Below, one piece after another: positions 40,944 to 63,103 of a stretch of DNA of 64,000 bases. Position numbers and translations under genes: made by a program. Location of the stretch: NCBI GenBank assembly GCA_026002995.1, contig BPGK01000001.1, forward strand, positions 620,001-684,000, written 5' to 3'. Source of the DNA: Gaiellaceae bacterium. Lineage in GTDB: Bacteria; Actinomycetota; Thermoleophilia; Gaiellales; Gaiellaceae. The first letter of the stretch is position 1. Each line of letters opens with the position of its first letter. Under the pieces are notes generated by a model, which was not told the origin of the DNA, made no database searches, and worked only from the letters and a program-made list of their open reading frames with translations.

Positions 40944-40974
40944 CGCGACAGTCTCGAACGGCAGCGTTGCGCTG

Positions 40975-42102: not shown

Positions 42103-42137
42103 TCTCAGAACTCACGGAAGTGCCTGCAAATCGGCTA

Positions 42138-42210: not shown

Positions 42211-42253
42211 GCGCAGCCCAGTGTAGTCGGCTCTTCCTCGACCGCGGGGGAGA

Positions 42254-48471: not shown

Positions 48472-49391
48472 CCGCCCTTTCCCCCGTGAGCGGACGACCC
48501 CGTTCGCGCGCTCGACTCGAGGACGCGGAACGCCTCGACCGTCTCCCGAACGCCGGTCTCGAGCGGGCGCCACTCGACCGGCCCGAAGTCCTCCTCGAGC
48601 GCTGAGCCGTCGTAGCTCGGCGGCGTCGGCGCGAACGGCTCGTCGCCGAACGTGATCGCCGCTCCGGGTGCCGCCTGCTCGATCTCGTCCACGATCTCGG
48701 CGATCGTATGCACGGGGCCGCCTGCGTCGTACACAAGGGCCCCCCGCGAGACCGCCCGGGCGCAGCGCACGAGCAGCTTCGCGACGTCTCCCGCGTGATT
48801 GAGCGGTGTGCTCCCTCCGAAGGGAATGTGGAACGGAAGCCCGTGGGCGGCCGCCCGCATGGCGAGCGTGACGGCGGCCGTCACGCCTCGATCGCGCCCG
48901 AGGCCGTACACGAGCGCCGGTCGGAGGCCGATGCTCGGAAACCCATCCTCGGCCCAGAACGCGCTCGCCGTCTTCTCGTTCGCGAGCTTCCAGGCGCCGT
49001 AGAGCTGTCCATCGAGGAGCGCGGCAAGCGAGCTCGTGTACACGAGCTTCGCTCCGGCTGCGAGCGCCGCGTCGAAGACCGCAACGGTGCCGAGGACGTT
49101 GACGTGCGCTCCGCGGAGGTGGTCGGCGCGGCAGTCGGGGTACTGGAGCGCGGCGAGGTGGATGACGTGCGTCACCCCGGAGAACACCCTGCGCAAAGTG
49201 TCGAGATCAGTGACATCCCCCTGTTCGAAGCGGATGTCGGCCAGCTCGTCTCGCTGGAGGAGGAGCGCGGCGCGCCCGGGCCCCGGACCGATGTCGAGCG
49301 CGACGACGTCGGCTCCTTCGCGGACGAGCTCGGCGACGGTCCACGCGCCGAGGCAACCATGGGAGCCGGTGACGCAGAACCTCTCGCTCAC
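48465..49391 (-). CDS. NAD-dependent epimerase/dehydratase (extended SDR)
   Basis: A 308-residue Rossmann protein: the dinucleotide loop GSHGCLGAW, then DVTDLDTLRRVF, VIHLAALQYPDC, the Ser in VYTSSLAAL and the active-site YGAWK. Members oxidise, reduce or epimerise sugars and related compounds. Placed between pcaI and a cupin, it may act on a sugar or lactone released from a glycoside. Substrate unknown. Both ends overlap neighbours. Confidence 0.85.
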   Translation of the reverse strand: MSERFCVTGSHGCLGAWTVAELVREGADVVALDIGPGPGRAALLLQRDELADIRFEQGDVTDLDTLRRVFSGVTHVIHLAALQYPDCRADHLRGAHVNVLGTVAVFDAALAAGAKLVYTSSLAALLDGQLYGAWKLANEKTASAFWAEDGFPSIGLRPALVYGLGRDRGVTAAVTLAMRAAAHGLPFHIPFGGSTPLNHAGDVAKLLVRCARAVSRGALVYDAGGPVHTIAEIVDEIEQAAPGAAITFGDEPFAPTPPSYDGSALEEDFGPVEWRPLETGVRETVEAFRVLESSARTGSSAHGGKGGC

Positions 49392-49897
49392 GCTCGGGCT
49401 GCGCTCTCGAAGAGCTCGAGGTTCTCGGGGAGACGCGCCCGAAGCTCGTCGGTGAACGTCCCGCCGACGAGCACGAACGCCATCCGGGCCGTCCGGTCGG
49501 TGGGGTTGATCCAGGCGTGATCGGTTCCCCGCTGGATGACGACGTCGCCCGGGCTCAGGCGAGTCTCGCTTCCGTCGTCGAGCGCCAAGACGATCTCGCC
49601 GTCGAGGACGATGCCGTAGTCGAGGGTCTGCGTGCGATGCATTGGCGAGCGCGAGCGCGGCGCGAGCTCGACGATGCGAAAGACGGTGCCCGCGCCCTCC
49701 GGTGGGACGGCGAGGGGTCGGCGGTCGGTCGGCTCCTGGCGCTCCCGCGGGGCGAGCGGCGCCGGCGCGTCGCTCGTTCGCCAGAGCTCGTAGAAGGTCG
49801 CGCCCGGAACCGAGCGCGAGATCGGGGGAGCGCCGTCCTCGAGCACGATCGAGCGCCCGTTCTCGTCGTGCCCGGTGACGATCCGCCGCGGTCTCAT
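49388..49897 (-). CDS. cupin-domain protein
   Basis: A 169-residue single cupin. The barrel motifs are SPMHRTQTLDYGIVLDGEI and LSPGDVVIQRGTDHAWINP; histidines and a Glu-like Asp could hold a metal, though the first motif departs from the usual HxH. It may be a small dioxygenase, isomerase or sensor in the aromatic pathway. Start overlaps the hydrolase stop, stop overlaps the epimerase start. Confidence 0.8.
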   Translation of the reverse strand: MRPRRIVTGHDENGRSIVLEDGAPPISRSVPGATFYELWRTSDAPAPLAPRERQEPTDRRPLAVPPEGAGTVFRIVELAPRSRSPMHRTQTLDYGIVLDGEIVLALDDGSETRLSPGDVVIQRGTDHAWINPTDRTARMAFVLVGGTFTDELRARLPENLELFESAARA

Positions 49898-50991
49898 CGC
49901 TCCAGACGGGCGCGCACCCAGTTGACGATCGTCGGGCCTACGGGCCCTTCGCCCATATGTCCTCCGTCGAAGACGCGCGCTGCCTTCGGGTCTCCGTAGT
50001 CGAGGCTGAGGTACAGATCGTCGATCGAGTTCTGGCGGTCGTCCCGGCCGTTCACGAGGAGGAGCTCAGCCGAGGGGCGCTCGAGGAGGCCCTGCTCGAG
50101 GAGGGAGAGCTCGGAGCAGCGCTCCACGTACTCCTCGAACGTGTGCCCGCCGAAGATCCGTGCCCGGGCGGCCATGAGGTCCATGAGGTACGAGGGCGCC
50201 TCGCGCGAGCGCTCCTGCCACTCCCGCGTGAAGGTGATGTGCACGCCGCCACCCCAGTTCACGCAGCAGCGCAGCCGCTCCCGATGGGTGTAGGCGAGCT
50301 TCTGCGCCCAGTACCCGCCGAACGAGGCGCCGACCGCTGCGCGGCGGTCGCGGTCGAGATCCTCTCTCGTGTCGAGCCAGTCGAAGATGGGCGTCCACTG
50401 CCGCTCGGCGTCGCGGCTCGCAAGGATCGGCGACTCCCCGACGCCGGGCATGTCGACGAGGAGCACCGCGCAGCCGGCAGCCCGGAACGCAGCGCCGAGG
50501 CGGAAGTGCATCTCCTCCTTCCAGGTGTCGATCCCGCCCCAGACCATGACGACGGGGGGTCGTTCGACGCCGTGTGGGCGCGCGAGGTAGAAGGGGAGGT
50601 CTCGTCCCTCGAGGGAGACGACGACGCGCTCGACGGGCGGCGTCTCGAGCTGCGTCGCCTCACCGAAGAACGCGCGCGCCCGCTCGTACTGGCGCTCCTT
50701 GGCCGGGTGGTTCGGCACCGGGTAGCGGCCGAGGAAGGAGAAGGCGTAGGCCTGCTCGTAGGTGGCCCTCCGCTCCTCGGCGGAGCTCGCCTGCTCGGCG
50801 GCCGCGGCGAAACGCTCCGCGGTCGCTCCCCAGGCTGCTGCCCACGACTCGGGATCGATCCCGCTGAGTGACTCGATCGTCGCGCGTGCCGCGCTCGGAT
50901 CGACGTGATCGAGCGGATGGACGCGGCGCTCGAGGCGCTCGAGGAGCCAGCTGCGCGCTGCGTCGAGACCGCTCTTGGACACTGCGCTCAC
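49894..50991 (-). CDS. alpha/beta hydrolase with helical N-terminal domain
   Basis: A 365-residue protein. A helical cap (about 1-130) precedes a hydrolase core with the oxyanion region VVMVWGGIDTWKEEMHF, the nucleophile in VGASFGGYWAQKLA, an acid in LLVNGRDDRQNSIDD and the His in RVFDGGHMGEGP. The layout matches FrsA/DUF1100-like and C-C bond hydrolases with an N-terminal domain. In this operon it could cleave a carbon-carbon bond in a ring-opened intermediate. GTG at 50991 overlaps the cyclase stop. Confidence 0.82.
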   Translation of the reverse strand: MSAVSKSGLDAARSWLLERLERRVHPLDHVDPSAARATIESLSGIDPESWAAAWGATAERFAAAAEQASSAEERRATYEQAYAFSFLGRYPVPNHPAKERQYERARAFFGEATQLETPPVERVVVSLEGRDLPFYLARPHGVERPPVVMVWGGIDTWKEEMHFRLGAAFRAAGCAVLLVDMPGVGESPILASRDAERQWTPIFDWLDTREDLDRDRRAAVGASFGGYWAQKLAYTHRERLRCCVNWGGGVHITFTREWQERSREAPSYLMDLMAARARIFGGHTFEEYVERCSELSLLEQGLLERPSAELLLVNGRDDRQNSIDDLYLSLDYGDPKAARVFDGGHMGEGPVGPTIVNWVRARLER

Positions 50992-51740
50992 TCCTCGACG
51001 ATCGCGACCACGCGCGCCCACCCCGCGCTCGCGCGCTCGATCTTGACCGGGAAGGCGGCGACGAGGAAGTCGGTGGGGCGGGGGAGTTGGTCGAGGTTCG
51101 CGAGGCGCTCGATCTGGCAGTACTCCTTCCGCCGGCCGAGGAGGTGCGACTCCCAGAACTGCGCCCGCCCGGCCTTCGCGTCCTCGAGCATGATCTGGAA
51201 TGGGCGGTCGAGGCCCCAGGCGTCGATGCCGATCAGCCGGACACCACTGTCGACGAGGAACTCGGTCGCGTCCACGCGCAAGCCGGGGTGGCGCTGCTCG
51301 TAGCCCGGGGAGCGGAGATCCGTCCCCGTCATCACGAGCACGATGTCGAGCGGCTCGAGGACATGGTTGATGCGCGCGAGCTCGCGCTCGACGTCGTCCC
51401 GCGTGATGCCGCGCACGCGGTCGTGACCGCGGAAGTCGAGGAGGACGCCCCGCCCGAAGCACCACTCGAGCGGCACCTCGTCGATCGTGCGAGCACGACC
51501 CCGCTCAGCGGGCCCGTAGTGGGCGGGCGCGTCCAGATGCGTTCCGGAGTGTGTCGAGAGCGTCACCACCTCCGCTGCGAGCGCCACCCCTCCGGGCCAG
51601 AACTCGGGGCCGAGGCCCCACTCGGCGGACTGCGCCGCGGTCGTCTCGGGGTCGAGGTACGTGATCTCGTGACGGTTGAACTCGAAGTCCGAGGTCGTGT
51701 TCGAGAGGGTGTCGGAGAGGTCGTAGATGCGCCGTGCCAT
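50988..51740 (-). CDS. cyclase/kynurenine formamidase-family metal hydrolase
   Basis: A 250-residue protein with the metal motif STHSGTHLDAPAHY near residue 65-75 (HxGTHxDxPxH), then LVMTGTDLRSPGY and LIGIDAWGLDRP. Family members hydrolyse amides or lactones, or act as isatin hydrolase. Here it may open a lactone from aromatic ring cleavage. Its ATG shares a base with the stop of the FAH gene. Confidence 0.88.
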   Translation of the reverse strand: MARRIYDLSDTLSNTTSDFEFNRHEITYLDPETTAAQSAEWGLGPEFWPGGVALAAEVVTLSTHSGTHLDAPAHYGPAERGRARTIDEVPLEWCFGRGVLLDFRGHDRVRGITRDDVERELARINHVLEPLDIVLVMTGTDLRSPGYEQRHPGLRVDATEFLVDSGVRLIGIDAWGLDRPFQIMLEDAKAGRAQFWESHLLGRRKEYCQIERLANLDQLPRPTDFLVAAFPVKIERASAGWARVVAIVEE

Positions 51741-52672
51741 CACCCCGCCTCCCGTGCGGCCGTCGCGGCGCGGGGGATCGGGATCGGATCGGCGCCGGCC
51801 ACGACGCAGTTCGAGATCGACCCGATTCCCTCCACGGTCATCGTCACGACGTCGCCCACCGCGAGCGGTGGCGGCTCGCGACGACCGGCGCGGCCCCACA
51901 GCTCGGCCAGGCACCCCCCACCGCACGTTCCGGAGCCGAGCACGTCGCCGACGCGGATCCAGGCCCCGCGGGAGGCGTAGGCGACGAGGCTCGCGAACGA
52001 CCACGCCATGCTCGCGAGCGTGTCCTTCCCGAGAACCGTGCCGTTCACGGCGACCTCCAGGGCGAGGTCGAGCCGGTCGTCGCGTCGGTAGCGCTCGAGC
52101 TCGTCCGCGGTCACGAGCCAGGGCCCGAGGGTGATCGCCGAGTCCTTGCCCTTGGCCGGACCGAGGCCGACGGCCATCTCCTCGAACTGGAGGTCGCGTG
52201 CCGACCAGTCGTTCATGATCGTGTAGGCGGCGATGTGCTCATGCGCCCTCTCCGGAGCGACGTCGCGGCCGTCGCGGCCGATCACCGCCGCCACCTCGAG
52301 CTCGTAGTCGAAGAGACGGCAACCAGGGGGCACGGGGACCTCGTCGTTCGGGCCCAGTACGGAGTGGGGGTTCGAGAAGTAGAAGGTCGGTGCCTCGTAC
52401 CAGCGCGGGTGGATCTCGCGGGGGGGATCGTGGAGGCGGACCATGCCCTCGACGTGGCGCTCGAAGGTGAGGAAGTCCCGGATCGACGGCGGCTCGATCG
52501 GCGCGAGCAGGCGCGCGGAGTCGAGGGGCAGCGTCTGCCCGGTCTCGACCGCGACTCCGGGGTCGCGCAGGACGTCGCGCACCTCGAGGGCCGGGTCGAG
52601 GAGTCGGACGAGGTCGTTCTCGACGACGGCGACGCGTACGCTGCCATCGACCTCGACGCGCGCGATCCTCAT
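51740..52672 (-). CDS. fumarylacetoacetate hydrolase-family protein
   Basis: A 310-residue protein. The FAH core has the metal-binding YELEVAAVIGRDGRDV and YTIMNDWSARDLQ, plus KGKDSAITLGPWLV and LASMAWSFASLVAYASRG. Family members hydrate or hydrolyse 2-oxo intermediates of meta-cleavage pathways, such as 2-oxopent-4-enoate hydratases and fumarylpyruvate hydrolases. It fits as a step after the extradiol dioxygenase. Both junctions overlap. Confidence 0.9.
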   Translation of the reverse strand: MRIARVEVDGSVRVAVVENDLVRLLDPALEVRDVLRDPGVAVETGQTLPLDSARLLAPIEPPSIRDFLTFERHVEGMVRLHDPPREIHPRWYEAPTFYFSNPHSVLGPNDEVPVPPGCRLFDYELEVAAVIGRDGRDVAPERAHEHIAAYTIMNDWSARDLQFEEMAVGLGPAKGKDSAITLGPWLVTADELERYRRDDRLDLALEVAVNGTVLGKDTLASMAWSFASLVAYASRGAWIRVGDVLGSGTCGGGCLAELWGRAGRREPPPLAVGDVVTMTVEGIGSISNCVVAGADPIPIPRAATAAREAG

Positions 52673-53784
52673 AGGGGAGCCGCGGTGAGCTCGACCGAGC
52701 GCATCGTGAGCCCGACGAAGTCCGCCTCCGAGGGAGGCGTGTGCTCGATCTCCCAGATCCCGATCTGACGGGAGATGCGCCAGATCTCCTCGCAGCGGGG
52801 GAAGCGGCGTTCGACGTAGCGTTGGAGCGCGCTCTCGAGGTCGCTCCCGCTCGTGACCTCCTCCGAGAGCACGACCGCGTCCTCGATCGCCATCGCGCCG
52901 CCTTGGCCGACGTGCGGGGAGGTCGCATGCGCCGAGTCTCCGACGAGGACGACGCGGCCCCGGTGCCACGGCTTCGGGACGAGGAGCGACTCCACCGGGC
53001 GGACGACGACCTTCGTCGGATCGATGAGGTACCGGTCGCGCACCTCGGCCACCGGCCCTCCGAACTCGGCGAGCCGCTCGCGCATGATGTTCGCGAGCTC
53101 CTCGTCCGGCATCTTCACCTGGTCTGCCGGAACCGCCTCGATGTAGAGGATGTACATGAGGTCGGGCGCGAGCGGGACGAAGCCGGCCTTGCCGTTCGAG
53201 CCGACGAACATGTGGAGCATGTCGAGACCCTCCGGGCGCGGGACGTTGTAGCGCCACACGATCTGGCCGGTGTACTCGGGCTCCGGAGCGTCGGGGAAGA
53301 CGAGCTTCCGCACCGTCGAGTGGATCCCGTCCGCGCCCACGACGAGGTCGTACTCCGCCTCTTCGCCGGTCGACAGCCGCACGCGCCCGTCCTCGCCGAC
53401 CTCGCTCACGGTCAGCCCCACCCGGACGTTCGCTCCCTGCTCCCTCACGGCTTCCTGGAAGATGGCGTGCAGCCGAGGGCGGGTGATCCCGTTCATGGGC
53501 GGGTACTTCGGGCCCAGGAGGTCGAGGGCGGGCACCTCGCCGAGAAGGTTTCCCTGGCTGTCGTGGAACCGGGAGCCCTTCATCGCGAACCCCTGCGCGA
53601 CCGCCCTCTCGGCAAGCCCGAGCGCATCGAGCGCTCGGATCGCGTTTCCGGGCTGGATGATCCCCACTCCGTACACGTCCCAGCGCGGGTTGATCTCGAC
53701 GACGTCGACCTCGACTCCGCGCTGGCGCAGTCCGATCGCGGTCGAGAGACCACCGATTCCGCCACCGACGACGAGGACGCGCAT
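52669..53784 (-). CDS. FAD-dependent aromatic monooxygenase
   Basis: A 371-residue class A flavin monooxygenase: RVLVVGGGIGGLSTAIGLRQ (FAD), DLVVGADGIHSTVRKLVF (DG motif) and VVLVGDSAHATSPHVGQGG. It hydroxylates an aromatic ring using NAD(P)H and oxygen. Together with the next gene (an extradiol-type dioxygenase) it forms a hydroxylate-then-cleave pair, as in flavonoid A-ring degradation (FdeE/FdeC-like). Substrate not determined from sequence. Confidence 0.88.
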   Translation of the reverse strand: MRVLVVGGGIGGLSTAIGLRQRGVEVDVVEINPRWDVYGVGIIQPGNAIRALDALGLAERAVAQGFAMKGSRFHDSQGNLLGEVPALDLLGPKYPPMNGITRPRLHAIFQEAVREQGANVRVGLTVSEVGEDGRVRLSTGEEAEYDLVVGADGIHSTVRKLVFPDAPEPEYTGQIVWRYNVPRPEGLDMLHMFVGSNGKAGFVPLAPDLMYILYIEAVPADQVKMPDEELANIMRERLAEFGGPVAEVRDRYLIDPTKVVVRPVESLLVPKPWHRGRVVLVGDSAHATSPHVGQGGAMAIEDAVVLSEEVTSGSDLESALQRYVERRFPRCEEIWRISRQIGIWEIEHTPPSEADFVGLTMRSVELTAAPL

Positions 53785-54779
53785 CAGGCGAAGAGACCGG
53801 TCGCCGCCTTCGTCTCCTCGACCGTCTCGGGTGCGAGGTCGACGGGTGGGAAGGACTCGAACATGGAGTGTGGGAGCGCCGCGTTCTTGTAGAAGACGTT
53901 CGATCCCTGCTGCGGCTCGAAGCGGACTGTCTCGAAGTCGGGCTCGTAGTTCCGGTAGCCGCCGGTGTTGAGCTCGATCCGAAGCCCGCTCGGCTCTCGC
54001 ACGTAGAGGTAGTCCTGCTCGCCCATCCCGTGCTTGCCGGGGCCGAACTCGATCGCGATGTCCTGGTTCAGGAAGATGTCCGCGGCGCGCAGGAGCTCCT
54101 CGCGGGAGTCGACCCAGTACGCGACGTGGTTGATCCGTCCGCGCACGGGCGAGGGGTCCCAGACGAGCCCGTAGTCGTGGGCGCGCTCGCACACCGTGGT
54201 CATTGCGAAGACGATCCAGTCCGGGCGCTCGGGGATCACGGTGTACTCCATGAAGCGGTGTCCGAGGGTGTCGCGGTGCCAGGCAGCATCCGCGCCGGGG
54301 TTCGCGGTGGCGACCGTTACGTGGTCGAGGTTGCGCGCCGCGACGCCACGCGGGACGTAGCGCTGCGGGCGGTTCGGGAATGGGGACTCCATGCCCGATG
54401 GCGCGCTGTAGCGCTCGACCTCCCAGAAGAGCTCGTGGAGGTGCCCGCCTGGCCCGCGGTACCGGTAGGTCGCGCCTTGGCCGACATCGGCGTCGATCCA
54501 GCCCTCGCCGACCCCGGCGGCCTCGACCCGCTCCACGGCGGTGCGCAGTTGCTCGGGCCCCTGCGCGCGCCAGGCGATGTGGCCGAGCCCCGGCGCCGGC
54601 CCTTCTGTGAGCTGGAGCGAGTGGTAGAAGCGCTCGCCCCAGCCCCGCAGGAAGACCGACTGGCCGTTCCGGCTCGAGACCTCGAGCCCGAGGACGTCGG
54701 TGTAGAAGCGCAGGGACTCATCCGGCACCGGGGTCAGGATCTCGACGTGGGCGAGTTGGGAGAGCAGGCGCTCGGTCAT
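53784..54779 (-). CDS. extradiol-type ring-cleavage dioxygenase (VOC superfamily)
   Basis: A 331-residue two-domain VOC protein. Iron-ligand candidates are His in AHVEILTPV or LDHVTVATA, His in RINHVAYWV and Glu in LRIELNTGG near the C-terminus, as in catechol 2,3-dioxygenase-like enzymes. It probably cleaves a catechol-type ring next to the hydroxyls. It is the first gene of the 15-gene run, with AGGAGA before the ATG and the GAATC dyad about 25 bp upstream. Confidence 0.88.
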   Translation of the reverse strand: MTERLLSQLAHVEILTPVPDESLRFYTDVLGLEVSSRNGQSVFLRGWGERFYHSLQLTEGPAPGLGHIAWRAQGPEQLRTAVERVEAAGVGEGWIDADVGQGATYRYRGPGGHLHELFWEVERYSAPSGMESPFPNRPQRYVPRGVAARNLDHVTVATANPGADAAWHRDTLGHRFMEYTVIPERPDWIVFAMTTVCERAHDYGLVWDPSPVRGRINHVAYWVDSREELLRAADIFLNQDIAIEFGPGKHGMGEQDYLYVREPSGLRIELNTGGYRNYEPDFETVRFEPQQGSNVFYKNAALPHSMFESFPPVDLAPETVEETKAATGLFA

Positions 54780-54822: not shown

Positions 54823-56553
54823 TCACCTTCTCTGGGCAGGCCAGGAGACGGATGAGGTGGGCCGCGCGAGGTCACCGCTCGCGTGCGCGTGTGCGATGTA
54901 GTCGCATGCGCGTGCCGTGAGCGCCATGATCGTCAGGGTCGGCCCGACGGTGCTGTTCGAGACGAATGAGCTGCCGTCGGTGACGAAGAGGTTGGGGACG
55001 TCCCAGGCCTGGTTGACCTCGTTGAGAACGGAGGTCCGCGGGTCTGACCCCATGCGGACACCGCCGCACTCGTGGATCGCTGCGCCCATGCGGATGATCT
55101 TGCCCACTCCGAGCCGGAAGAGGAGCCGCTGCACCGGGCCGGCCGCCGGGAACACCTGCTTCGTCGCGAGACCGAGGACGGAGGCGATGAAGTTCACGCG
55201 GTACCCGCACAGCTCGGTCATCTCCGCGAGCGCCTCCACTTGCGCGGCCACCTGTCGTCGGTCGTGCTCCGAGAGCGTGCAGCGGATGTGGGCCGCCGGG
55301 ATCCCCCACTTGTCCTTCCGCCGCCGGGCGAGCGTCACGCGGTTGTCGTAGCTCGGGAGCATCTCCCCGACGCCGCCGATCCCGAAGGAGGTCGGGTAGT
55401 CCTTCGGCACGGGGAAGCGCCCCCCCGCGCCCTGGAAGGAGATGCCGCGGGCGAAGCGGGGGTTCACTCGACCGTCGATGTTGTCGTAGCGCGGGATGAG
55501 GATCCCGCCTGCGGGGTGGTAGAAGGGGTCGTGCGGAGCGGAGTCGTCCCGCTCGGCGTACCCGGGCCAGTGGGGCACGTCGCAGAACGCGAGGCTGATC
55601 GTCTGATCCATGAAGTAGCGTCCGACGAGCCCGGAGGAGTTTGCGAGCCCGTCGGGGTGGGAGGGGCAGGCCGAGACGAGGAGGAGCCGGATCGACTCGA
55701 TCGTGGACGCGCAGAGGACGACGACGTCCGCGTATACGCGGTGCTCCTTCCCCGACACGCGGTCGACGAACACTGCGCCGTCTGCGAGCTTCGTCCGCGG
55801 ATCGACGGTGATCTGCTTGACCACCGCATCCGTTCGCGTCGTCAACCGACCGGTCGCGCGAGCGGCGAGGATGCCCTTGGGCACCCGGTCGAGGTTCGGC
55901 GCCGCGTAGCGCCAGGAGACGACCCGCCGCTCCGGCCAGCGCGCCTCGACCTTCTCCTTGAACTCCTGCTCCACCGCGGTGAGCTTCGCCGGGCCGACGT
56001 AGCGGCCATCGGGTGGATGGGAGAGACCGTCCGCGTTCCCGTACACGCCGAGGAACTCCTCCACGCGGTCGTAGTACGGCTCGAGGTCGGCGTACGCAAA
56101 GGGCCAGTCGAGACCGATCCCGTCGGCGCTCGCGGCCTTGAAGTCGACGTCGGACATCCGCTGGAGGACGCGGCCGTAGCTGTTCAGGCGCCCCCCGAGG
56201 ATGCGTCCTCGGATCCACAGGTAGGGGGCGTCGCGGGGAGTCGTGTAGGGGTTCTCCCTGTCGTTCACGAGGAAGCGGTTCGTCGCTTCGCTGTAGAACG
56301 CCCGCCGCACCTGGATGTGCTGGCCGCGGAGAGCCGCACGGAGACGGGGCCTGAGATCCAACCCGAGCGGCTTCGGGGGCTTCGGCGGGGGAGGGACGAA
56401 GTCCGCCTCGGTCAGGTCGCGACCTGCCTCGAGCAGGAGCACGTCGAGCCCGCGCTCGGTGAGCTCCTTGACCGCGATGCTTCCGGCCGCTCCCGAGCCG
56501 ACGACGAGCGCGTCGAACCTGCGGTCGAGCGCGGAGCCGTTCCCGTCAACCAT
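54823..56553 (-). CDS. GMC-family FAD oxidoreductase (C-glycoside 3-oxidase-like)
   Basis: A 576-residue protein. The FAD motif is ALVVGSGAAGSIAVKELTER; the C-terminus has AAIHECGGVRMGSDPRTS and SNSTVGPTLTIMALTARACD with the active-site histidine region. This matches pyranose-oxidase-like GMC enzymes, including CarA, which oxidises the sugar C3 of C-glycosides. The neighbours (TIM barrel and two DUF6379 proteins) are what C-deglycosidases need, supporting this role. It overlaps the TIM gene by 8 bp and ends before the operator. Confidence 0.82.
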   Translation of the reverse strand: MVDGNGSALDRRFDALVVGSGAAGSIAVKELTERGLDVLLLEAGRDLTEADFVPPPPKPPKPLGLDLRPRLRAALRGQHIQVRRAFYSEATNRFLVNDRENPYTTPRDAPYLWIRGRILGGRLNSYGRVLQRMSDVDFKAASADGIGLDWPFAYADLEPYYDRVEEFLGVYGNADGLSHPPDGRYVGPAKLTAVEQEFKEKVEARWPERRVVSWRYAAPNLDRVPKGILAARATGRLTTRTDAVVKQITVDPRTKLADGAVFVDRVSGKEHRVYADVVVLCASTIESIRLLLVSACPSHPDGLANSSGLVGRYFMDQTISLAFCDVPHWPGYAERDDSAPHDPFYHPAGGILIPRYDNIDGRVNPRFARGISFQGAGGRFPVPKDYPTSFGIGGVGEMLPSYDNRVTLARRRKDKWGIPAAHIRCTLSEHDRRQVAAQVEALAEMTELCGYRVNFIASVLGLATKQVFPAAGPVQRLLFRLGVGKIIRMGAAIHECGGVRMGSDPRTSVLNEVNQAWDVPNLFVTDGSSFVSNSTVGPTLTIMALTARACDYIAHAHASGDLARPTSSVSWPAQRR

Positions 56554-57487
56554 CGTCTCGTCCTCGCTCGAGGAGCGTGCGGAGCATCGCCTGCTGGCGG
56601 CGGAGCATGTCGGAGGCGCGGTAGAGATCGCGGGGCCCTTCGTACTCGCTCGAGAGCGAGCCGGTGTACCCGCCCTCGACGAGCACGGAGACGATCTCGG
56701 CGTACGGGATGTGCGGATCGGTGAGCGTGTCGGTCATCTCCCAGAACTTCGCATGGACGTGGACGACGTACGGGAGGACGTCGGCGAGATCGCGAGGATC
56801 GACGGCCAACGGCTTGCGCATCTCGCGCTCCACCTGCTCGCGGAGCGCGGGCTCCGGGTCGCCGAAGACGTACACCGCGTCGCCGTGGGCCGCCGTTCGT
56901 TCGGCCGTCTGGAAGATGCCCGTGTCGATGAGGAGACCGAAGTGCGCTGTGCCCGTCTCCTGCACGAGCTCGAGGTAGCCCTCGACGACCGGGGAGCGCA
57001 GCGGTGTCGGCGCGTGGATCTCCGGCGCGATCCGGACGTCGAGCTCCTCCGCTTTCGGGAGCACCCGGAGCACGGTCTCGCGCCAGATCGGATCGGGGAC
57101 GAGGTCGAGGGAGACGACCCCGATCTTCGGCCGTACGATCCGAAAGCCGAGCCGGTGCGCGAGCTCGACGTCGCGGTGCAGGATCGCTTCGGCTTCGGCG
57201 GGCTCGAGGCCGCGGTCCCGATGGAGGCGGGTGTCGAGCCAGCTCGAGTAGCAGGTGGGCGTGAGGCGGTACCGCTCGAGCAGCGCGTGCCAGCGGTCGA
57301 TCCAAGCGGCATCGGGGTTGGGGTAGCCGGGGATGTGCGTGTCGGAGAGGATCTCGACGTCGGTCGCCCCCATGTCGGCGATGTCCGCGAGGCAGTCCTC
57401 GAGCGTCATCGTGACGAGGTAGTCCCCGCCGTAGCTGTAGAGCGAGACACCGAGGGTCGGCTCGGGGCTGGTCGGGCGCGGGCTCAT
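56546..57487 (-). CDS. TIM-barrel protein, C-deglycosidase alpha-like (1)
   Basis: A 313-residue xylose-isomerase-like TIM barrel. Metal-site residues are visible: E156 in APEIHAP, D188 in LLIDTG, H243/H245 in VVHVHAKF and E281 in SSEYEGP. These EIH, D, HVHxKF and SSEYEG blocks are shared with the two paralogues at 58459 and 59863 and with the catalytic subunit of C-glycoside deglycosidases (DgpB/CarB). It would bind Mn or another divalent metal and cleave the 3-oxo-C-glycoside. It overlaps both neighbours. Confidence 0.78.
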   Translation of the reverse strand: MSPRPTSPEPTLGVSLYSYGGDYLVTMTLEDCLADIADMGATDVEILSDTHIPGYPNPDAAWIDRWHALLERYRLTPTCYSSWLDTRLHRDRGLEPAEAEAILHRDVELAHRLGFRIVRPKIGVVSLDLVPDPIWRETVLRVLPKAEELDVRIAPEIHAPTPLRSPVVEGYLELVQETGTAHFGLLIDTGIFQTAERTAAHGDAVYVFGDPEPALREQVEREMRKPLAVDPRDLADVLPYVVHVHAKFWEMTDTLTDPHIPYAEIVSVLVEGGYTGSLSSEYEGPRDLYRASDMLRRQQAMLRTLLERGRDDG

Positions 57488-57894
57488 CGGACGAGGACGA
57501 GCGCGCGGCGCGTGCGACAGGTCGTGGGTTGCATCTCGACGGGGATGTACGACCACCGCCAGGTGACCGAGACACCGACCTCGTACAGGCCTGGCGCGAG
57601 CCCGCCCGGCCGGGTGACCGTGAGGAGTGCCGGCTCGTCGTAGGGCCAGCGGACGTCCGCGGTGGCGAAGAGGCGCTCGGAGTCGTACGTCACCCCTCCG
57701 AGCGTCCACCTGATCTCGCTCGGGCCGTGACGCTCCCCGTCGACGGTCACTTCGACATCCTCGAGGAGCGACGCCCAGATGCCTCGGTAGTACGGGCAGC
57801 GAACGGCGACCTGGAAGCCGATCGGGGTCGGCTCGCCGACGTTCCCGAATCCTCGCTGCTGGATGATCTCCCGCTCGAGCATCGTCGGGCTCAC
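57484..57894 (-). CDS. DUF6379 / C-deglycosidase beta-like (1)
   Basis: A 136-residue beta-rich protein. Its QVAVRCPYYRGIWASLLEDV and VEVTVDGE blocks correspond to the WYRxLPLS...VEVxxDGE core of the three other small proteins here, though it is the most diverged. The family provides the small subunit of DgpB-DgpC/CarB-CarC. GTG at 57894 was chosen because it overlaps the upstream stop (GTGA) like most junctions here; ATG at 57882 is possible. Confidence 0.7.
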   Translation of the reverse strand: MSPTMLEREIIQQRGFGNVGEPTPIGFQVAVRCPYYRGIWASLLEDVEVTVDGERHGPSEIRWTLGGVTYDSERLFATADVRWPYDEPALLTVTRPGGLAPGLYEVGVSVTWRWSYIPVEMQPTTCRTRRALVLVR

Positions 57895-58349
57895 TCGGGA
57901 GAGCTCCCTGCTCCGTCGAGAGGATCGGGGATAGTCGGCGAGGACGGGGGTGCGGCAGGCTGAACCGTGAGCTCGAGCGCTCGCTCGGTGACCTGTCGCA
58001 AGGGGGTGTCGGGGGCAGTCGAGATGTACGGAATCCGGCAGCGGATGGCGACGCGAACGTCGTGCGCCTCCCCGGCCCGAACCGGGCGAGGGACGAGGAT
58101 CGATGCCGGATCGCGGACGAACCACTCCTCGTCGTGCCGAGCTTGGAGCTCATCGAGCCGGCGCTCGCGTCCGCCGACGACGAGCCGCAGGTTCTCCGCG
58201 GGAATCGGCTCTCCGTCGAGCGCAACCTCGATCTCCTCGACGCAGGAGAGGGGGAGCGACCGGTACCACGGGAGTCGCACGGAGAGGGCGAGGCCGTCTT
58301 CGTGTTCCCGGAGCGCGTCCTCACGGAGCAGGACGGATGCGAGGCTCAC
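57891..58349 (-). CDS. DUF6379 / C-deglycosidase beta-like (2)
   Basis: A 152-residue beta-rich protein: LSVRLPWYRSLPLSCVEEIE, VALDGEPIPAENLRLVVGG, EWFVRDP and RCRIPYISTAPDTPLRQVTE. It is a clear paralogue of those at 59481 and 60905. The last 20 residues are Pro/Ser-rich. As the small subunit it would pair with a TIM-barrel protein. It is the first gene of the unit 58349-54823, 28 bp below the GAATC operator. Confidence 0.78.
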   Translation of the reverse strand: MSLASVLLREDALREHEDGLALSVRLPWYRSLPLSCVEEIEVALDGEPIPAENLRLVVGGRERRLDELQARHDEEWFVRDPASILVPRPVRAGEAHDVRVAIRCRIPYISTAPDTPLRQVTERALELTVQPAAPPSSPTIPDPLDGAGSSPE

Positions 58350-58377
58350 GGCTTCCTGCGCTCCCGAGCTCTTATTC

Positions 58378-58395
58378 GAATCAGGGTTCGGATTC
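58378..58395 (-). promoter_or_regulatory. GAATC-N8-GATTC operator, C-deglycosidase unit
   Basis: GAATC-AGGGTTCG-GATTC lies 28 bp upstream of the gene at 57891-58349. The spacer shares GGTTCG with the copy at 54801. A further GAATC follows at 58399. The rest of 58350-58458 holds no gene. Confidence 0.65.
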
Positions 58396-58458
58396 GTGAA
58401 TCTTACGAAGCCGCTCCTGCGGCGTCAAGCGACTCCCGTGGGCCGGGGCCCTCGCGCC

Positions 58459-59484
58459 TCAGCTCGACCGGGCGTACCGCTCGAGCGCGGCGCGGCACAC
58501 GGCCTGCTGGCGGGCGACCATCGCGAAGGCGTCGCTCTCCGTGTCCCAGTGCCAGCCCTCGTACTCGCTCGAGATGTACCCGCGGTACCCGCCTGCGACG
58601 AGGACGTCGATGAGCTCCTCGAGCGCGACGACCGGCTCCCTCCCGTCCCGGATGTCGAAGAACTTCCCGTGCACGTGCACGACGTGCGGGAGGATCTCGC
58701 TCCAGGCGCTCGCCTCCTGGTGCCCGTGGATACCGACCGCGAACACGGCGAGGTTGACGGCGTGGTCGCCCGCTCCGTGCTCATGGGCGAGGGCGATGAA
58801 GCGCCCGATCTCCTCGTGCGCCTCGAACTCCTTCCCGTCGAGCTCGCGCCAGCGACGCGCGATCTCTTCGAGCAGGTCGTCCGAGACGCCCTTCGCGCGG
58901 AACGCCTCGAACATGCTCGGGGAGATGCCCCGGGTCGAGGCGCCGAAGTCGGGGATGAAGCCGAGGTAGGGAGAGTCGAGGCGCGCGTACAGCTCGCGGA
59001 GGGCGAGCACCCACGGGGAGCGGACGGTCTCGGGGGCGTGGATCTCCATCCCCAGCTTCACCCGGCGCTTCTCCGCGTGGGGCAGGAGGCGCTCGACCAC
59101 CCGTGGGCTCGCCTGGTTCTGAATGCGCAGGACGGGGAACCCGAGCCGCGCGGCGGCGTCGATCTGGGCCTGGAGGTACTCGACGAGCTCCGTCTCGTCG
59201 AGGAGGCGATCAGCGCGCAGGGCGATGTCGACGTTCCCGTCCAGGCAGGAGAGCTCGAGGCCGTGCCGCTCCACGAGCTCGAGGAAGCGGCGCTCGTCCT
59301 CGGCCGCCATGTGCGGGAACCCACGGAAGCTCTGGAAGCCGATGACCTCGAGTCCCGGCCCGAGCCCCTCGCGCGCCACGCGGGCGACGAGCTCCTCGAG
59401 CGTCGCTCGACCGGCGTGGAAGTCGCGCGTGAAGCTGTACAGCGTCACCCCGAGGCGAGGCAGCGCCGACGCGCCGGGGCTCAC
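58459..59484 (-). CDS. TIM-barrel protein, C-deglycosidase alpha-like (2)
   Basis: A 341-residue TIM barrel with E147 (GMEIHAP), D179 (FIPDFGAS), H270/H272 (VVHVHGKF) and E307 (SSEYEGW) in the same order as the copies at 56546 and 59863. LGVTLYSFTRDFHAG opens the barrel. It carries an insert around 190-240 absent from the first copy. GTG at 59484 overlaps the stop of its partner small gene, so the pair is translated together. Confidence 0.8.
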   Translation of the reverse strand: MSPGASALPRLGVTLYSFTRDFHAGRATLEELVARVAREGLGPGLEVIGFQSFRGFPHMAAEDERRFLELVERHGLELSCLDGNVDIALRADRLLDETELVEYLQAQIDAAARLGFPVLRIQNQASPRVVERLLPHAEKRRVKLGMEIHAPETVRSPWVLALRELYARLDSPYLGFIPDFGASTRGISPSMFEAFRAKGVSDDLLEEIARRWRELDGKEFEAHEEIGRFIALAHEHGAGDHAVNLAVFAVGIHGHQEASAWSEILPHVVHVHGKFFDIRDGREPVVALEELIDVLVAGGYRGYISSEYEGWHWDTESDAFAMVARQQAVCRAALERYARSS

Positions 59485-59873
59485 CGGCGCGCCTCCATCC
59501 GCTTCACGCAGCGCTCGCGCATGACGAGCGGGTGGCCCGACTCGACGATGTAGGGAATCCGGAGCGCAACGGTGACGTCGAGCTCGTGCTCGCCGTCCCC
59601 CGCTGCGAGCGAGCGGGGTAGCGTCACCTCGATCGGGTCGGCGACGTACCACCAGGTGTCGTGGAGCGGCGAGAGGTCGGAGAGGCGGTAGCTTCTGCCT
59701 GCGAGCGTCAGCTCGAGCGTCTCGGGCGGAACCTCCTCGCCGTCGATCCTGACCTCCAAGCCCTCGAGGCAGGAGAGAGGGAGAGCGCGGTACCACGGCA
59801 TCCGAAGCGCGAAGGTCGCGCCTCGCTCGAGGGCGCGGAGCGACCCGTCGGCGATGACCTGGTCACCGAGCAC
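59481..59873 (-). CDS. DUF6379 / C-deglycosidase beta-like (3)
   Basis: A 130-residue protein: FALRMPWYRALPLSCLEGLE, VRIDGEEVPPETLELTLAG, WWYVADPIEVTLPRSL and ALRIPYIVESGHPLVMRERC. It has the length expected for a DgpC/CarC-type subunit. GTG at 59873 lies 11 bp inside the end of the upstream TIM gene; its stop overlaps the next TIM start. Confidence 0.8.
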   Translation of the reverse strand: MLGDQVIADGSLRALERGATFALRMPWYRALPLSCLEGLEVRIDGEEVPPETLELTLAGRSYRLSDLSPLHDTWWYVADPIEVTLPRSLAAGDGEHELDVTVALRIPYIVESGHPLVMRERCVKRMEARR

Positions 59874-60891
59874 GGACGAGTCGCTCCTGCGCCTCGACGA
59901 TGAGCCGCTGGAGGAGGTCGTGGTGGAGTCGGCACATCTCCCAGCCGCTCACCGCATCGGTGTACGCGTGGCCCTCCCACTCGCTCGAGATGAATCCGGA
60001 GTACCCGCCTCGCACGAGCACGTCGACGATCGTCGGGTAGTCGATCGACGGCTCCTCGCCTCGCTCGTCGATTCCGTAGAACTTCCCGTGGACGTGCACG
60101 ACGCGGGGCAGGAGCTCCTCCCAGCGACGAGGGTCCATGCGTCCGTGCATCGTGAGCACCATGTTCAGCTTCCCGCGCTCGCCGGGCGTGGCACCGAGTC
60201 GCTCGGACTCCTCGGCAAAGCGGGCGAACTTCTCCGGCATGCTGGAGTCGCTCTCCCACACCTCGGACACGAGCTCGATGAGCGCGGGCGGCATCCCCGA
60301 GGCCCGGTGGGCCTCGACGAGCATGGGCGGGATGCTGCGCATGGAGGCGCTGAAGTCTGGGACGAAGCCGAGGAGGGGGCAGTCCACCGCCTCGAACAGC
60401 TCGCGGAGCTCGAGGACATGGGGCGAGTCGACCGACTCGGGACTGTGCACCTCGACCCCGAAGCGCATCTCGAGGCGCTCGGCGATCCTCGCGAGCCCTT
60501 CGACGAAGCTCCTGGTCGAGAGGATGGCCGACTTCCCGATCGCGAATCCGAGCGCGTGTGCCGCCTCCATCTGCGCCTCGAGGTAGGAGAGCGCCTCCTC
60601 TTCGGTCAGGCGACGGTCGCGCCGGAGCGCGAGGTCGAGGTTCATGCTCATCGCGGTCGGTACGAGCTCGCACTCGTCGAGAAGCGCGCGGAAGTCGGCG
60701 ACGAAGCGGTCGGAGAGCCGTGGCCAGTCGCGGATGCTCTGGAAGCCGACGATCTCGAGCCCGGGGCCGAGGTCGAGCTCGGCCACGCGTCGGATCATGC
60801 GTTCGAGCGAGTAGTCGGGCCGCCGCATCTCGAGCGTGAGGCTGAAGAGCGTCGTGCCGAGCTTGGGCGGACCCTCGGGCGTCGCCGTCAT
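59863..60891 (-). CDS. TIM-barrel protein, C-deglycosidase alpha-like (3)
   Basis: A 342-residue TIM barrel, closest to the one at 58459: LGTTLFSLTLEMRRPDYSLE, E147 (GVEVHSP), D179 (FVPDFSAS), VVHVHGKFYGI and SSEWEGH (Tyr replaced by Trp). It would hold one divalent metal. GAAAGGAGG precedes the ATG. It lies between two DUF6379-like genes, so it could pair with either. Confidence 0.8.
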   Translation of the reverse strand: MTATPEGPPKLGTTLFSLTLEMRRPDYSLERMIRRVAELDLGPGLEIVGFQSIRDWPRLSDRFVADFRALLDECELVPTAMSMNLDLALRRDRRLTEEEALSYLEAQMEAAHALGFAIGKSAILSTRSFVEGLARIAERLEMRFGVEVHSPESVDSPHVLELRELFEAVDCPLLGFVPDFSASMRSIPPMLVEAHRASGMPPALIELVSEVWESDSSMPEKFARFAEESERLGATPGERGKLNMVLTMHGRMDPRRWEELLPRVVHVHGKFYGIDERGEEPSIDYPTIVDVLVRGGYSGFISSEWEGHAYTDAVSGWEMCRLHHDLLQRLIVEAQERLVRAR

Positions 60892-60904
60892 CGCCGGCCT
60901 CCTT

Positions 60905-61306
60905 TCATGCGCAGACGAGCGTCTTGTCGGTGTGGCTCGAGGCGAGGAGCGGCTCGCCGTCGGGCCCGCCGATGAGGAGGTAGGGGATCCGCAACCCGAG
61001 CTCGAGCTCGACGTGGTGCTCGCCACGACGCGGGTCGGCAGCAGGGATGTGGAGCGTCACGGGGTCAGTCGTGAACCACCACTCGTCGTAACGCTCCGCG
61101 AGCTCCTCGAACCGGAAGCGCTTGCCGTTCGCCTCGACGACGAGCTCTGCGGGGTCGATCCGCTCGCCGTCGAGCTCGAGCTCGACGACCGCGAGGGACG
61201 TCAGCGGGAGCGCTCGGTACCAGTGCGAGTGGATCTCGAGCGCGTAGCCCTCCGCCGTCGCAGAGAGCGCGTCGTCGCGGACGACGTCCTTATCGAGCGG
61301 GCCCAC
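60905..61306 (-). CDS. DUF6379 / C-deglycosidase beta-like (4)
   Basis: A 133-residue protein: LEIHSHWYRALPLTSLAVVE, LELDGERIDPAELVVEANG, EWWFTTDPVTLHIPAAD and LGLRIPYLLIGGPDGEPLL. The core motif has His instead of Pro before WYR, unlike copies 2 and 3. It leads the leftward unit 61306-58459 just below the diverged GAATC operator. Confidence 0.78.
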   Translation of the reverse strand: MGPLDKDVVRDDALSATAEGYALEIHSHWYRALPLTSLAVVELELDGERIDPAELVVEANGKRFRFEELAERYDEWWFTTDPVTLHIPAADPRRGEHHVELELGLRIPYLLIGGPDGEPLLASSHTDKTLVCA

Positions 61307-61327
61307 GGTGCCTTCGACCTTTGACTA

Positions 61328-61345
61328 GAACTAGGATTCTGATTC
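61328..61345. promoter_or_regulatory. diverged GAATC-type dyad between divergent units
   Basis: GAACT-AGGATTCT-GATTC lies between the leftward C-deglycosidase unit and the rightward SnoaL-like gene. One half-site is imperfect. TTGACT (61321-61326) and TAGAGT (61349-61354) flank it and could belong to the rightward promoter. Confidence 0.5.
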
Positions 61346-61409
61346 GGCTAGAGTACGGGACGTGGCGGCCACGGTCAAGCAGGCTCGGAAGTGAGGTGCG
61401 AGCCCGCGA

Positions 61410-62195
61410 GTGAGCACGGCGCCGGGACAGCACGCTGACGAGAGGATCGCCGAGCTCGAGGCGCGGGTGCGCGAGCTCGAGGAGCTCGCACGGAGGGGAG
61501 CTCGCGCGAAGGACCGGGCGGAGATCGAGAACGTCTTCTCCCGCTACATGTTCTGCCACAACGCGTTCCGCGACGAGGAGATCATCCCGCTCTGGGTGAA
61601 GCCGGGGACGCCGGGGATCCGCGCCCAGTACAGCAACGCAGGCGTGTACACGACCTGGGAGAGCGTCACCGAGTACCACCGGAATCGACCGGCACCCGTG
61701 GGCAAGCTCATCCTCCACGCCACCACGACCCCGGTCATCGAGGTGTCCGAGGACGGCGCGACCGCGAAGGGGGTCTGGATCATGTTCGGTCTCGAGTCGG
61801 GGCTCGCGGATCCGGAGGTCGCCGAGGCGCTCCCCGACTTCTTGTTCACGCCTGGCGAGGTCGACGGCAAGCGCGTGTGGGCGCACTGGGTGTGGGCAAA
61901 GTACGCGCTCGCCTTCCTGAAGCAGGACGGCGCCTGGCGAATCTGGCAGTTCCGCTGCTACGAGGTTGCGCGCGCTCCCTTCCACGAGAGCTGGGTGCAC
62001 TTCGCTGCCCGTGACGTCGAGGCGTTCGACCGCGATCTCATGTACTTCGGCGAGGATGGCCGTCCGCGCTTCATGCCGCCGCCGGATGCGCCGGCGACGG
62101 AGATCGCGCACCGCTACTCGCCGCGGAGGCGGCAGACGCTCGACCCGAGGCCACCCGAGCCGTACCGCACCTTCGAGGAGGGTGATCGCGCGTGA
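61410..62195 (+). CDS. SnoaL/NTF2-like protein
   Basis: A 261-residue protein. An N-terminal coiled coil (IAELEARVRELEELARRGA) is followed by an NTF2-like cone (AEIENVFSRYMFCHNAFRDE, KLILHATTTPVIEV, KYALAFLKQDGAWRIWQFRC). Such domains occur in isomerases, cyclases and hydroxylase partners; catalytic residues are not clear. The C-terminal 50 residues are a Pro-rich extension. GTG start; the stop overlaps the next gene. Confidence 0.78.
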   Translation: MSTAPGQHADERIAELEARVRELEELARRGARAKDRAEIENVFSRYMFCHNAFRDEEIIPLWVKPGTPGIRAQYSNAGVYTTWESVTEYHRNRPAPVGKLILHATTTPVIEVSEDGATAKGVWIMFGLESGLADPEVAEALPDFLFTPGEVDGKRVWAHWVWAKYALAFLKQDGAWRIWQFRCYEVARAPFHESWVHFAARDVEAFDRDLMYFGEDGRPRFMPPPDAPATEIAHRYSPRRRQTLDPRPPEPYRTFEEGDRA

Positions 62196-63103
62196 GCGCG
62201 ATCGAGGGCGGGCGCCCCGGGCTGCTGCGGCGCTGCGGGATCAGCCAGTGCACGACTCCCACGCTCACCGCGGCGGAGGCGGCAGCGCTGTACGCCGAGG
62301 CTGGTTTCGGCGCGATCGGCGTGTGGCTGCACAAGCTCGAGCGACCCGACTGGACGGGGGGCTTCTTCGTGCCGGAGGTCGAGCTCGCGCCGGCCCTCGT
62401 CGAAGAGACGGCATCCGACCTGCGGGCGAGCGGCCTCGTCGTCTCCCACGTCGTTCTCGGGGGCTTCTTCGTCACCGACGACGAGGAGCTCCGCCGGCGC
62501 CGGGTTCGCTCGACCGTGCGGGCGCTCGACGTCGCGGAGGCGCTCGGCGCGACCTGCCTCGTCATCGCTCCCGGCCGGCTCGAAGGCCGCCCGGTCACGT
62601 GGGCGCACGACTGTGCGTCCCGCTCCCTGAGCGAGGTGCTCGAGCTCCGCTCCGAGAGCTCCGTTCGCCTCGGTCTCGAACCGGTGATCGCCTGGCAGAG
62701 CGACTACATGTGCTCCATCGCGCGCGCCCTCGAGCTCGTCGAGCTCGTCGACCACCCGCGGCTCGGCGTCTTCCTCGACAACTTCCACCTCTGGCACAAC
62801 GCCGACTGGGACACCCCGTTCGTCCTCGAGGAGGTCGAGCGCGCCGGCCCGCACATCGTCGGCGTCCACGTCAACGACGGCGTTCGCGGCTCCGAGGAGC
62901 GAGCACTCCCGGGAGAAGGCGAGATGCCGGTGGCGGAGTTCGTGGCGGCTGTCGAGCGGACGGGATACGACGGCTCGTACGACGTCGAGTACGTCTACGA
63001 CGCGGGCCGCATCGCCGCCGAGCCGGATTCGTTCGCGCCCGAGGCGGTGGTTGCACGCTGTCACGCCGGCCTGGAGAAGGTCCTCGCCGGAGTGCTCGGG
63101 TGA
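62192..63103 (+). CDS. sugar phosphate isomerase/epimerase-like TIM barrel
   Basis: A 303-residue xylose-isomerase-like TIM barrel of a different subgroup: LGLEPVIAW (Glu), LGVFLDNFHLWH (Asp/His), IVGVHVNDGV (His) and SYDVEYVYD (Glu). It could epimerise or isomerise the sugar released by deglycosylation. GTG at 62192 overlaps the SnoaL stop; its own stop overlaps the ThuA start. Confidence 0.82.
   Translation: MSAIEGGRPGLLRRCGISQCTTPTLTAAEAAALYAEAGFGAIGVWLHKLERPDWTGGFFVPEVELAPALVEETASDLRASGLVVSHVVLGGFFVTDDEELRRRRVRSTVRALDVAEALGATCLVIAPGRLEGRPVTWAHDCASRSLSEVLELRSESSVRLGLEPVIAWQSDYMCSIARALELVELVDHPRLGVFLDNFHLWHNADWDTPFVLEEVERAGPHIVGVHVNDGVRGSEERALPGEGEMPVAEFVAAVERTGYDGSYDVEYVYDAGRIAAEPDSFAPEAVVARCHAGLEKVLAGVLG

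Follow-up and report, generated by a model that had tools for sequence, protein, structure and literature searches.

C-glycosides resist ordinary glycosidases, and their complete use by soil bacteria is still poorly known. In the described C-glycoside deglycosidases (CGDs), which act after oxidation of the sugar at C3, a histidine base abstracts the proton at C2 and a metal-bound hydroxide assists in dearomatising the aglycone, which is held by the beta subunit; the next event is beta-elimination (PMC8563793, PMC10628242). Further chemistry of CGDs and their oxidases is given in PMC12724307. For Pseudarthrobacter siccitolerans, two B genes and two C genes are on record (PMC10646112), and a set of monooxygenase, VOC-family, hydrolase and cupin genes has been described for flavonoid A-ring cleavage in the fde and ifc clusters (PMC11303751, PMC11069340). 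The locus considered here belongs to a Gaiellaceae bacterium (assembly GCA_026002995.1) and lies in a stretch of 64,000 nucleotides of contig BPGK01000001.1 (positions 620,001 to 684,000; hereafter the window, whose numbering is used unless a genome position is named), where a GMC-family flavoprotein gene, three CGD alpha genes and four CGD beta genes adjoin genes of aromatic catabolism. Its CGD enzymes are of a known kind, and the arrangement of the gene set is new. Judged from gene content and linkage, it is quite likely that the locus represents a single regulon through which flavonoid-type C-glycosides are taken up, oxidised at C3 and cleaved at the C-C bond, and their aglycones degraded.

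The first-pass annotation of this DNA had reported one GMC oxidoreductase, three TIM barrels with intact metal blocks and four DUF6379-like beta proteins in two leftward units. All eight genes are found at those positions, open and intact on the minus strand:

54823-56553, minus strand: GMC, a GMC-family flavin adenine dinucleotide (FAD) oxidoreductase of 576 aa (PF05199 75 bits; best PDB match FAD-glucose dehydrogenase 6a2u, E 5e-32)
56546-57487, minus strand: TIM1, CGD alpha of the EuCGD (DfgA)/8QRZ class with a shorter lid region
57484-57882, minus strand: b1a, CGD beta of the EuCGD (DfgB)/8QRZ class, cognate of TIM1 (PF19906 103 bits)
57891-58349, minus strand: b1b, fourth CGD beta, with no cognate alpha adjoining (PF19906 71 bits; best PDB match AgCGD2 beta)
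58459-59484, minus strand: TIM2, CGD alpha with lid region, actinobacterial class (best PDB match 7dnm, E 3e-56)
59481-59873, minus strand: b2, CGD beta, cognate of TIM2 (PF19906 70 bits)
59863-60891, minus strand: TIM3, CGD alpha with lid region, non-actinobacterial class (best PDB match 7dnm, E 1e-66)
60905-61306, minus strand: b3, CGD beta, cognate of TIM3 (PF19906 62 bits)

The starts of TIM1 (57487), b1a (57882), TIM2 (59484) and TIM3 (60891) were set by homology and by 4-bp overlaps, the longest mechanical open reading frames (ORFs) of these four genes beginning too early. The two leftward units, b3-TIM3-b2-TIM2 and b1b-b1a-TIM1-GMC, are separated by 109 bp with a promoter-like site. Within the second unit, which extends past GMC, b1a and TIM1 overlap by 4 bp, and the end of TIM1 and the beginning of GMC share 8 bp.

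The reading of the alphas and betas as CGD subunits, also made in the first pass, is backed by matches in Pfam and among PDB sequences, by the trees and by conserved residues. All four betas exceed the curated PF19906 (CGDB) cut-off of 27.6 bits, with scores of 62-103 bits, and the genome (2.62 Mb) has no further CGDB match; the YR-motif Tyr that matches Tyr39 of the PuCGD beta is present in 4/4. Pfam assigns the alphas to the broad PF01261 family only, and their closest PDB sequences are solved CGD alphas, namely 7DNM for TIM2 and TIM3, and 8QRZ and 7BVS for TIM1 (C-terminal part of 8qrz, E 5e-85; 7bvs, EuCGD, E 4e-66). In AgCGD2 numbering, the metal ligands are E147, D179, H269, K271 and E305, and the catalytic His149 has Glu307 as its partner (residues as named in PMC8563793). 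Alignment to AgCGD2 (7DNM) finds all seven kept in TIM1, TIM2 and TIM3, and by this comparison the three TIM/beta pairs hold every residue for the known CGD mechanism. The stretch from D179 to H269 spans 57 aa in TIM1, a short lid that resembles the EuCGD class, versus 89-93 aa (89 aa in TIM3). TIM1 retains the metal ligand His269, the position being Gln in 8QRZ and in fused Arthrobacter and Microbacterium proteins. The same replacement of His269 by Gln was observed in fused beta-alpha (or EuCGD-class) proteins of five surveyed loci (L077, L072, L023, L035 and L022) as well as in PDB 8qrz; a literature search for the PDB codes 8QRZ, 8UN2, 8QVC and 8UMC found no relevant paper.

Trees of the alphas and of the betas, built separately, largely agree. 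TIM1 and b1a fall in the EuCGD/8QRZ class, TIM2 and b2 group with the pair of locus L017, and TIM3 and b3 with the pair of locus L026 (Bacteroidota). In the alpha tree, the supports are 100/98 for TIM1 with EuCGD, 99/92 for TIM2 with the L017 alpha and 87/54 for TIM3 with the L026 alpha, the last being a weak fork inside a wider clade at 98/95; TIM2 and TIM3 both fall within the lid-type clade that contains the solved CGD alphas. In the beta tree, b2 joins the L017 beta (99/83) and b3 the L026 beta (100/96), and b1b takes no resolved position, its nearest relative being b2 at 44% identity. 

This congruence suggests three cognate pairs, TIM1+b1a, TIM2+b2 and TIM3+b3, drawn from three old CGD classes, and together with gene order it argues for the same pairing in the cell. 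The remaining beta, b1b, is suggestive of a spare or exchangeable subunit. In the case of b1a-TIM1, the single chain of 8QRZ matches b1a at its N-terminal part (E 7e-24) and TIM1 at its C-terminal part, and the two genes are therefore read as a two-gene form of an 8QRZ-type enzyme. The class of TIM2 contains the second Arthrobacter globiformis alpha, which is probably AgCGD1. Since the three alphas are only 32-39% identical to one another, old classes appear to have been brought together, as opposed to fresh duplicates. Recent tandem duplication of the alphas was considered and rejected on this identity and on the three separate clades. Because the pairs belong to three deep classes, differing substrate ranges, as the first pass had supposed, are plausible; the preference of each pair is not readable from its sequence.

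Both leftward units are preceded by a like arrangement. Upstream of b3 and of b1b, a TTGAC(C/G) box, a 17-bp spacer and a -10-like box are followed at equal offset by GAATCnGAAnnCnnnTTCnA, present in the window as:

58376-58396, minus strand: operator copy 1, adjoining TTGACG-17-TAAGAT (58428-58400), upstream of b1b
61326-61346, minus strand: operator copy 2, adjoining TTGACC-17-TACTCT (about 61378-61350), upstream of b3

Copy 3 (genome 689462-689482) falls outside the window, 5.5 kb beyond its right end, and immediately precedes an altered fourth CGD alpha-like gene, which is followed by a sugar-type ATP-binding cassette (ABC) transporter and has a TetR gene just upstream. This third site was first found as a two-mismatch match to a pattern made from the first two sites only. 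The element has exactly three occurrences in the 2.62 Mb genome, with no one-mismatch copies, a count that is not independent since the final pattern was derived from the same three sites. Identical columns in all three sites number 13/20 in the operator versus 4/17 in the spacer. Chance repeats were considered as an explanation and rejected on column conservation, genome count and recovery of the third site. A search for the operator in the L017 genome gave one-mismatch matches only, near background. The TetR protein probably binds the shared operator, as its gene position indicates.

The second unit is part of a run of 19 genes with almost no gaps, which begins with b1b and ends with pobA. 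Within its first 16 genes, b1b to pcaB, the gaps are -8 to +8 bp, the sole exception being 43 bp after GMC; pcaD, pcaC and pobA come next, and the start of each overlaps the preceding stop by 4 bp. Beyond GMC the run consists of:

53784-54779, minus strand: extradiol ring-cleavage dioxygenase of the VOC fold, FdeC/IfcB-like role proposed (catechol 2,3-dioxygenase model 245 bits, cut-off 320)
52669-53784, minus strand: group A flavin monooxygenase (FMO), FdeE/IfcA-like role proposed (PF01494; PRK06847 448 bits, above cut-off)
51740-52672, minus strand: fumarylacetoacetate hydrolase (FAA) family protein (PF01557 182 bits)
50988-51740, minus strand: cyclase-family hydrolase (PF04199 116 bits)
49894-50991, minus strand: alpha/beta hydrolase, FrsA-like (PF06500 68 bits)
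49388-49897, minus strand: cupin (PF07883 45 bits)
48465-49391, minus strand: NAD-dependent epimerase/dehydratase (PF01370 88 bits)
47809-48471, minus strand: pcaI-like CoA-transferase subunit A (TIGR02429, above cut-off)
47162-47812, minus strand: pcaJ-like CoA-transferase subunit B (TIGR02428, above cut-off)
46437-47165, minus strand: pcaH, protocatechuate 3,4-dioxygenase beta (TIGR02422, above cut-off)
45875-46444, minus strand: pcaG, protocatechuate 3,4-dioxygenase alpha (TIGR02423, above cut-off)
44574-45878, minus strand: pcaB, carboxymuconate cycloisomerase (TIGR02426, above cut-off)
43804-44577, minus strand: pcaD, 3-oxoadipate enol-lactonase (TIGR02427 293 bits, above cut-off, match at genome 663825-664568)
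43424-43807, minus strand: pcaC, 4-carboxymuconolactone decarboxylase (TIGR02425 178 bits, above cut-off)
42201-43427, minus strand: pobA-like 4-hydroxybenzoate 3-monooxygenase (PRK08243 584 bits, above cut-off; TIGR02360 503, cut-off 539)

The beta-ketoadipate genes pcaH, G, B, C, D, I and J each score above their curated cut-offs, and the genes of aromatic catabolism in this run agree with the aromatic substrate that the first pass had assumed. Deinococcus, Bacteroidota and further Actinomycetota have homologues of the FMO, VOC, FAA and hydrolase proteins next to CGD genes. A polyphenol aglycone is supported because a similar ring-cleavage set lies beside CGD genes in Deinococcus aetherius, Paraflavisolibacter, Arthrobacter StoSoilB13 and Nesterenkonia; a literature search joining C-deglycosidase with flavonoid ring cleavage found no paper. 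The VOC protein is 66-67% identical to its homologues in Rhizobium rhizogenes K84 and L017. On plasmid pAtK84c of K84, a ring-cleavage set (VOC 66%, monooxygenase 46% identical) was observed with no annotated CGD gene. Just past the left end of the run, an ORF judged by eye to be integrase-like (region 40891-42210) adjoins a tRNA gene (42138-42210), an arrangement that may represent a genomic island border.

The GMC protein belongs to the GMC superfamily, with PF00732 and PF05199 above cut-off and the FAD motif present. Its oxidase type is not the CarA type that the first pass had implied. Identity to the POx/CGOx-type GMCs of CGD clusters is 20-26% (about 23%), compared with 52-53% to the GMCs from Pantoea, Novosphingobium and Rhizobium, and with 67-68% to the L017 GMC, a separate clade; in the PDB search, FAD-glucose and fructose dehydrogenases rank first and POx/CGOx structures align at the C-terminus only. 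Membership of the CarA/POx-CGOx clade was rejected on identity, clade and this partial match. The canonical catalytic pair of GMC enzymes is His with Asn or His, as in POx and choline oxidase. The catalytic His is kept here, and the second position is Gly in this protein and in its four nearest homologues. Members of the clade occur near CGD genes in Pantoea and Novosphingobium (in both with a DUF6379 and TIM pair) and in L017, and the Rhizobium homologues have no CGD pair alongside. We infer that the GMC protein does the C3-oxidation of the glucosyl unit, because of its 8-bp overlap with TIM1, the repeated linkage of its clade to CGD genes and the lack of another candidate in the cluster: the genome has one other GMC, and its seven Gfo/Idh/MocA matches all lie elsewhere. 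An AlphaFold model from a four-row alignment had a mean predicted local distance difference test (pLDDT) of 43 and was set aside. The Pantoea and Novosphingobium plasmids (L101, L104) carry CGD pairs with long insertions (124 residues from D179 to H269), and near them a Gly-type GMC and the ring-cleavage genes 4-oxalmesaconate hydratase and gallate dioxygenase; this combination represents another variant of the pathway.

The fourth alpha beyond the window (genome C1:688455-689444; 68455-69444 in the window frame) carries H149Q and E307G. This class is the best match in 47 of the 80 loci read in the survey described below, usually with the same kind of sugar ABC transporter, and is found in Arthrobacter and Microbacterium (for instance, L077:14864-15934 and L072:15623-16648). 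C-C lyase activity is improbable for this protein; our guess is a later sugar step. Two further genes diverge from b3:

61410-62195, plus strand: SnoaL-like protein (PF13577), a conserved partner gene of actinobacterial CGD clusters
62192-63103, plus strand: sugar isomerase/epimerase-like TIM barrel, not a CGD alpha, in tandem with SnoaL (PF01261 125 bits)

The SnoaL-like protein is 60-77% identical across many CGD loci, and also adjoins a TIM gene in Novosphingobium aromaticivorans. A homologue (46%) of the TIM barrel adjoins the L017 alpha, and the protein may process the 3-keto-sugar product.

The DNA shows directly the family membership and intact sites of the proteins, the linkage of the genes, the congruence of the pairs and the repeats of the operator; we infer the reactions and substrates, which subunits pair in vivo, and which protein is the regulator. 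In the proposed pathway, the sugar-type ABC transporter right of the window would import aromatic C-glucosides or fragments of them, and the GMC flavoprotein would oxidise the glucosyl C3. The three heteromeric CGDs, each suited to another aglycone or attachment position, would then beta-eliminate the 3-oxo-C-glucoside by means of a Mn/Mg-type site and the His base, yielding the aglycone and 3-keto-glucal. The freed polyphenol would be hydroxylated by the FMO and its ring opened by the extradiol VOC dioxygenase, the FAA, cyclase, alpha/beta-hydrolase and cupin proteins would degrade the opened ring to a benzoate, and PobA and PcaHGBDCIJ would carry this to the tricarboxylic acid (TCA) cycle. 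The shared operator at all three promoters, probably TetR-bound, would coordinate the gene set. Several points weigh against this pathway: the VOC protein is below the equivalog cut-off of every named dioxygenase, the fde/ifc-like ring-cleavage role is proposed from the level of family and gene set only, the second catalytic residue of the GMC protein is Gly, its clade offers no characterised C-glycoside oxidase for comparison, and the sugar-processing steps are a guess. In addition, PuCGE also cleaves 3-keto O-glycosides (PMC10628242), and C-glycosides are thus perhaps not the sole substrates. A bolder version can be put forward only tentatively, as a possibility we do not favour: flavonoid C-glycosides would be mineralised from uptake to the TCA cycle by one regulon, with C3-oxidation by a non-POx/CGOx GMC that lacks the second catalytic residue, three CGD classes acting on different attachment positions, and the altered alpha (H149Q/E307G) acting on 3-keto-glucal.

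The activity of PuCGE on both 3-keto O- and C-glucosides, and the oxidation of O-glycosides by GlycDH and PurA (PMC10628242, PMC12724307), raise the alternative that the gene set mainly degrades O-glycosides such as flavonoid O-glucosides, with the GMC protein as a general glycoside 3-dehydrogenase and with O-glycoside elimination as the task of the CGD pairs. The 52%-identical Rhizobium GMCs, whose neighbours include sugar ABC transporters and isomerases but no CGD genes, are in keeping with such a role. However, the four betas keep the Tyr whose importance in PuCGE is specific to the cleavage of C-glycosides (PMC10628242), and three divergent CGD classes have been retained, so this alternative is rather unlikely. 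A similarly low likelihood is given to the idea that a separate dehydrogenase oxidises the sugar and that the GMC protein acts, for instance, on the released sugar or aglycone. The low identity to CGOx, the absent Asn/His, the Gfo/Idh/MocA matches elsewhere in the genome and the existence of DgpA-type oxidation in gut bacteria would all agree with it, but the GMC/TIM1 overlap, the company of CGD pairs that this GMC clade keeps in Pantoea, Novosphingobium and L017, the lack of a Gfo/Idh gene in the cluster and the presence of just one other GMC in the genome argue the other way. Far less probable still is that the TIM/beta proteins are sugar isomerases with an accessory domain, not C-C lyases: the broad PF01261 match of the alphas would allow it, and the CGDB assignment of 4/4 betas, the best PDB matches, all to solved CGDs, and the intact catalytic His/Glu and metal ligands speak against it. 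Breakdown of C-glycosides, with C3-oxidation by the GMC protein, is the reading retained here.

Clusters of several CGD genes are not peculiar to this genome. A scan of genome contigs returned 440 relatives, from which the best 80 loci were read, and among these best 80 of 440 most actinobacterial loci have 2-5 alpha-like and 2-3 beta ORFs. Whole-genome CGDB counts are 5 in A. globiformis, 6 in Microbacterium trichothecenolyticum and 7 in the metagenome-assembled genome WY1.bin120, a few of the matches being below cut-off; any CGDB match occurs in 4/396 sampled genomes of the same phylum, the present genome counted. Placement in Actinomycetota is indicated by RpoB, whose identity is 64-65% to Streptomyces and Arthrobacter across its full length and 72-77% to WY1.bin120, matches in other phyla scoring lower and mostly reaching 52-63% in pieces. 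The grouping of three alpha and four beta genes, which the first-pass annotation had read as a set with different substrate ranges, therefore follows a known pattern: Arthrobacter, Microbacterium and relatives routinely carry multi-paralogue clusters, and the numbers are equal or larger in A. globiformis, in M. trichothecenolyticum and in many other organisms. The gene complement of ABC transporter, SnoaL, alphas, betas and altered alpha is likewise found in Arthrobacter and Microbacterium. Taken as a whole, the first-pass interpretation was right in the CGD identity and wrong in the oxidase clade, and its scope was narrower than the actual gene set.

Set beside the A. globiformis AgCGD1/AgCGD2 and P. 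siccitolerans PsG3Ox clusters (PMC8563793, PMC10646112), the locus is alike in its multiple clustered CGD alphas and betas, its sugar ABC transporter and its altered extra alpha (H149Q/E307G), and shares a SnoaL-like gene with P. siccitolerans. Those clusters differ in having a POx/CGOx-type GMC, a fused EuCGD-class enzyme with H269Q and another gene order, and the full pca run is absent from their scanned flanks. CarABC of Microbacterium and PurABC of Paenarthrobacter (PMC12724307) resemble it in combining a flavin GMC oxidase with an alpha-beta CGD in an aerobic soil-type pathway, but one CGD pair is described for each, and CarA and PurA are of the CGOx kind, to which the present GMC is only about 23% identical. 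DfgAB/EuCGD and the natural fusion 8QRZ are the closest PDB match of TIM1+b1a on both subunits, yet here the two subunits are separate genes and H269 is kept, and the D179-H269 stretch of TIM1 is longer than that of EuCGD (57 vs 37 aa). GlycDH/AtOGE of Agrobacterium (PMC10628242) likewise joins C3-oxidation of C- and O-glycosides by a flavoenzyme to beta-elimination; AtOGE, unlike the present alphas and betas, has no sequence similarity to CGDs, and GlycDH was expressed with a partner protein bearing a twin-arginine translocation (TAT) signal, no such partner being seen next to the present GMC. The fde (Herbaspirillum) and ifc (Variovorax) clusters (PMC11303751, PMC11069340) also group flavin monooxygenase, VOC dioxygenase, alpha/beta hydrolase and cupin genes, but no CGD is described for them, and their likeness to the present run is at family level only. 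The present locus draws attention to a GMC clade as a possible independent C-glycoside 3-oxidoreductase, and its three natural CGD pairs of separate classes in one cell offer material for the study of C6/C8 selectivity. It physically links C-C cleavage, aglycone ring opening and the beta-ketoadipate pathway, and the substrate and the pathway are therefore testable by induction and expression.

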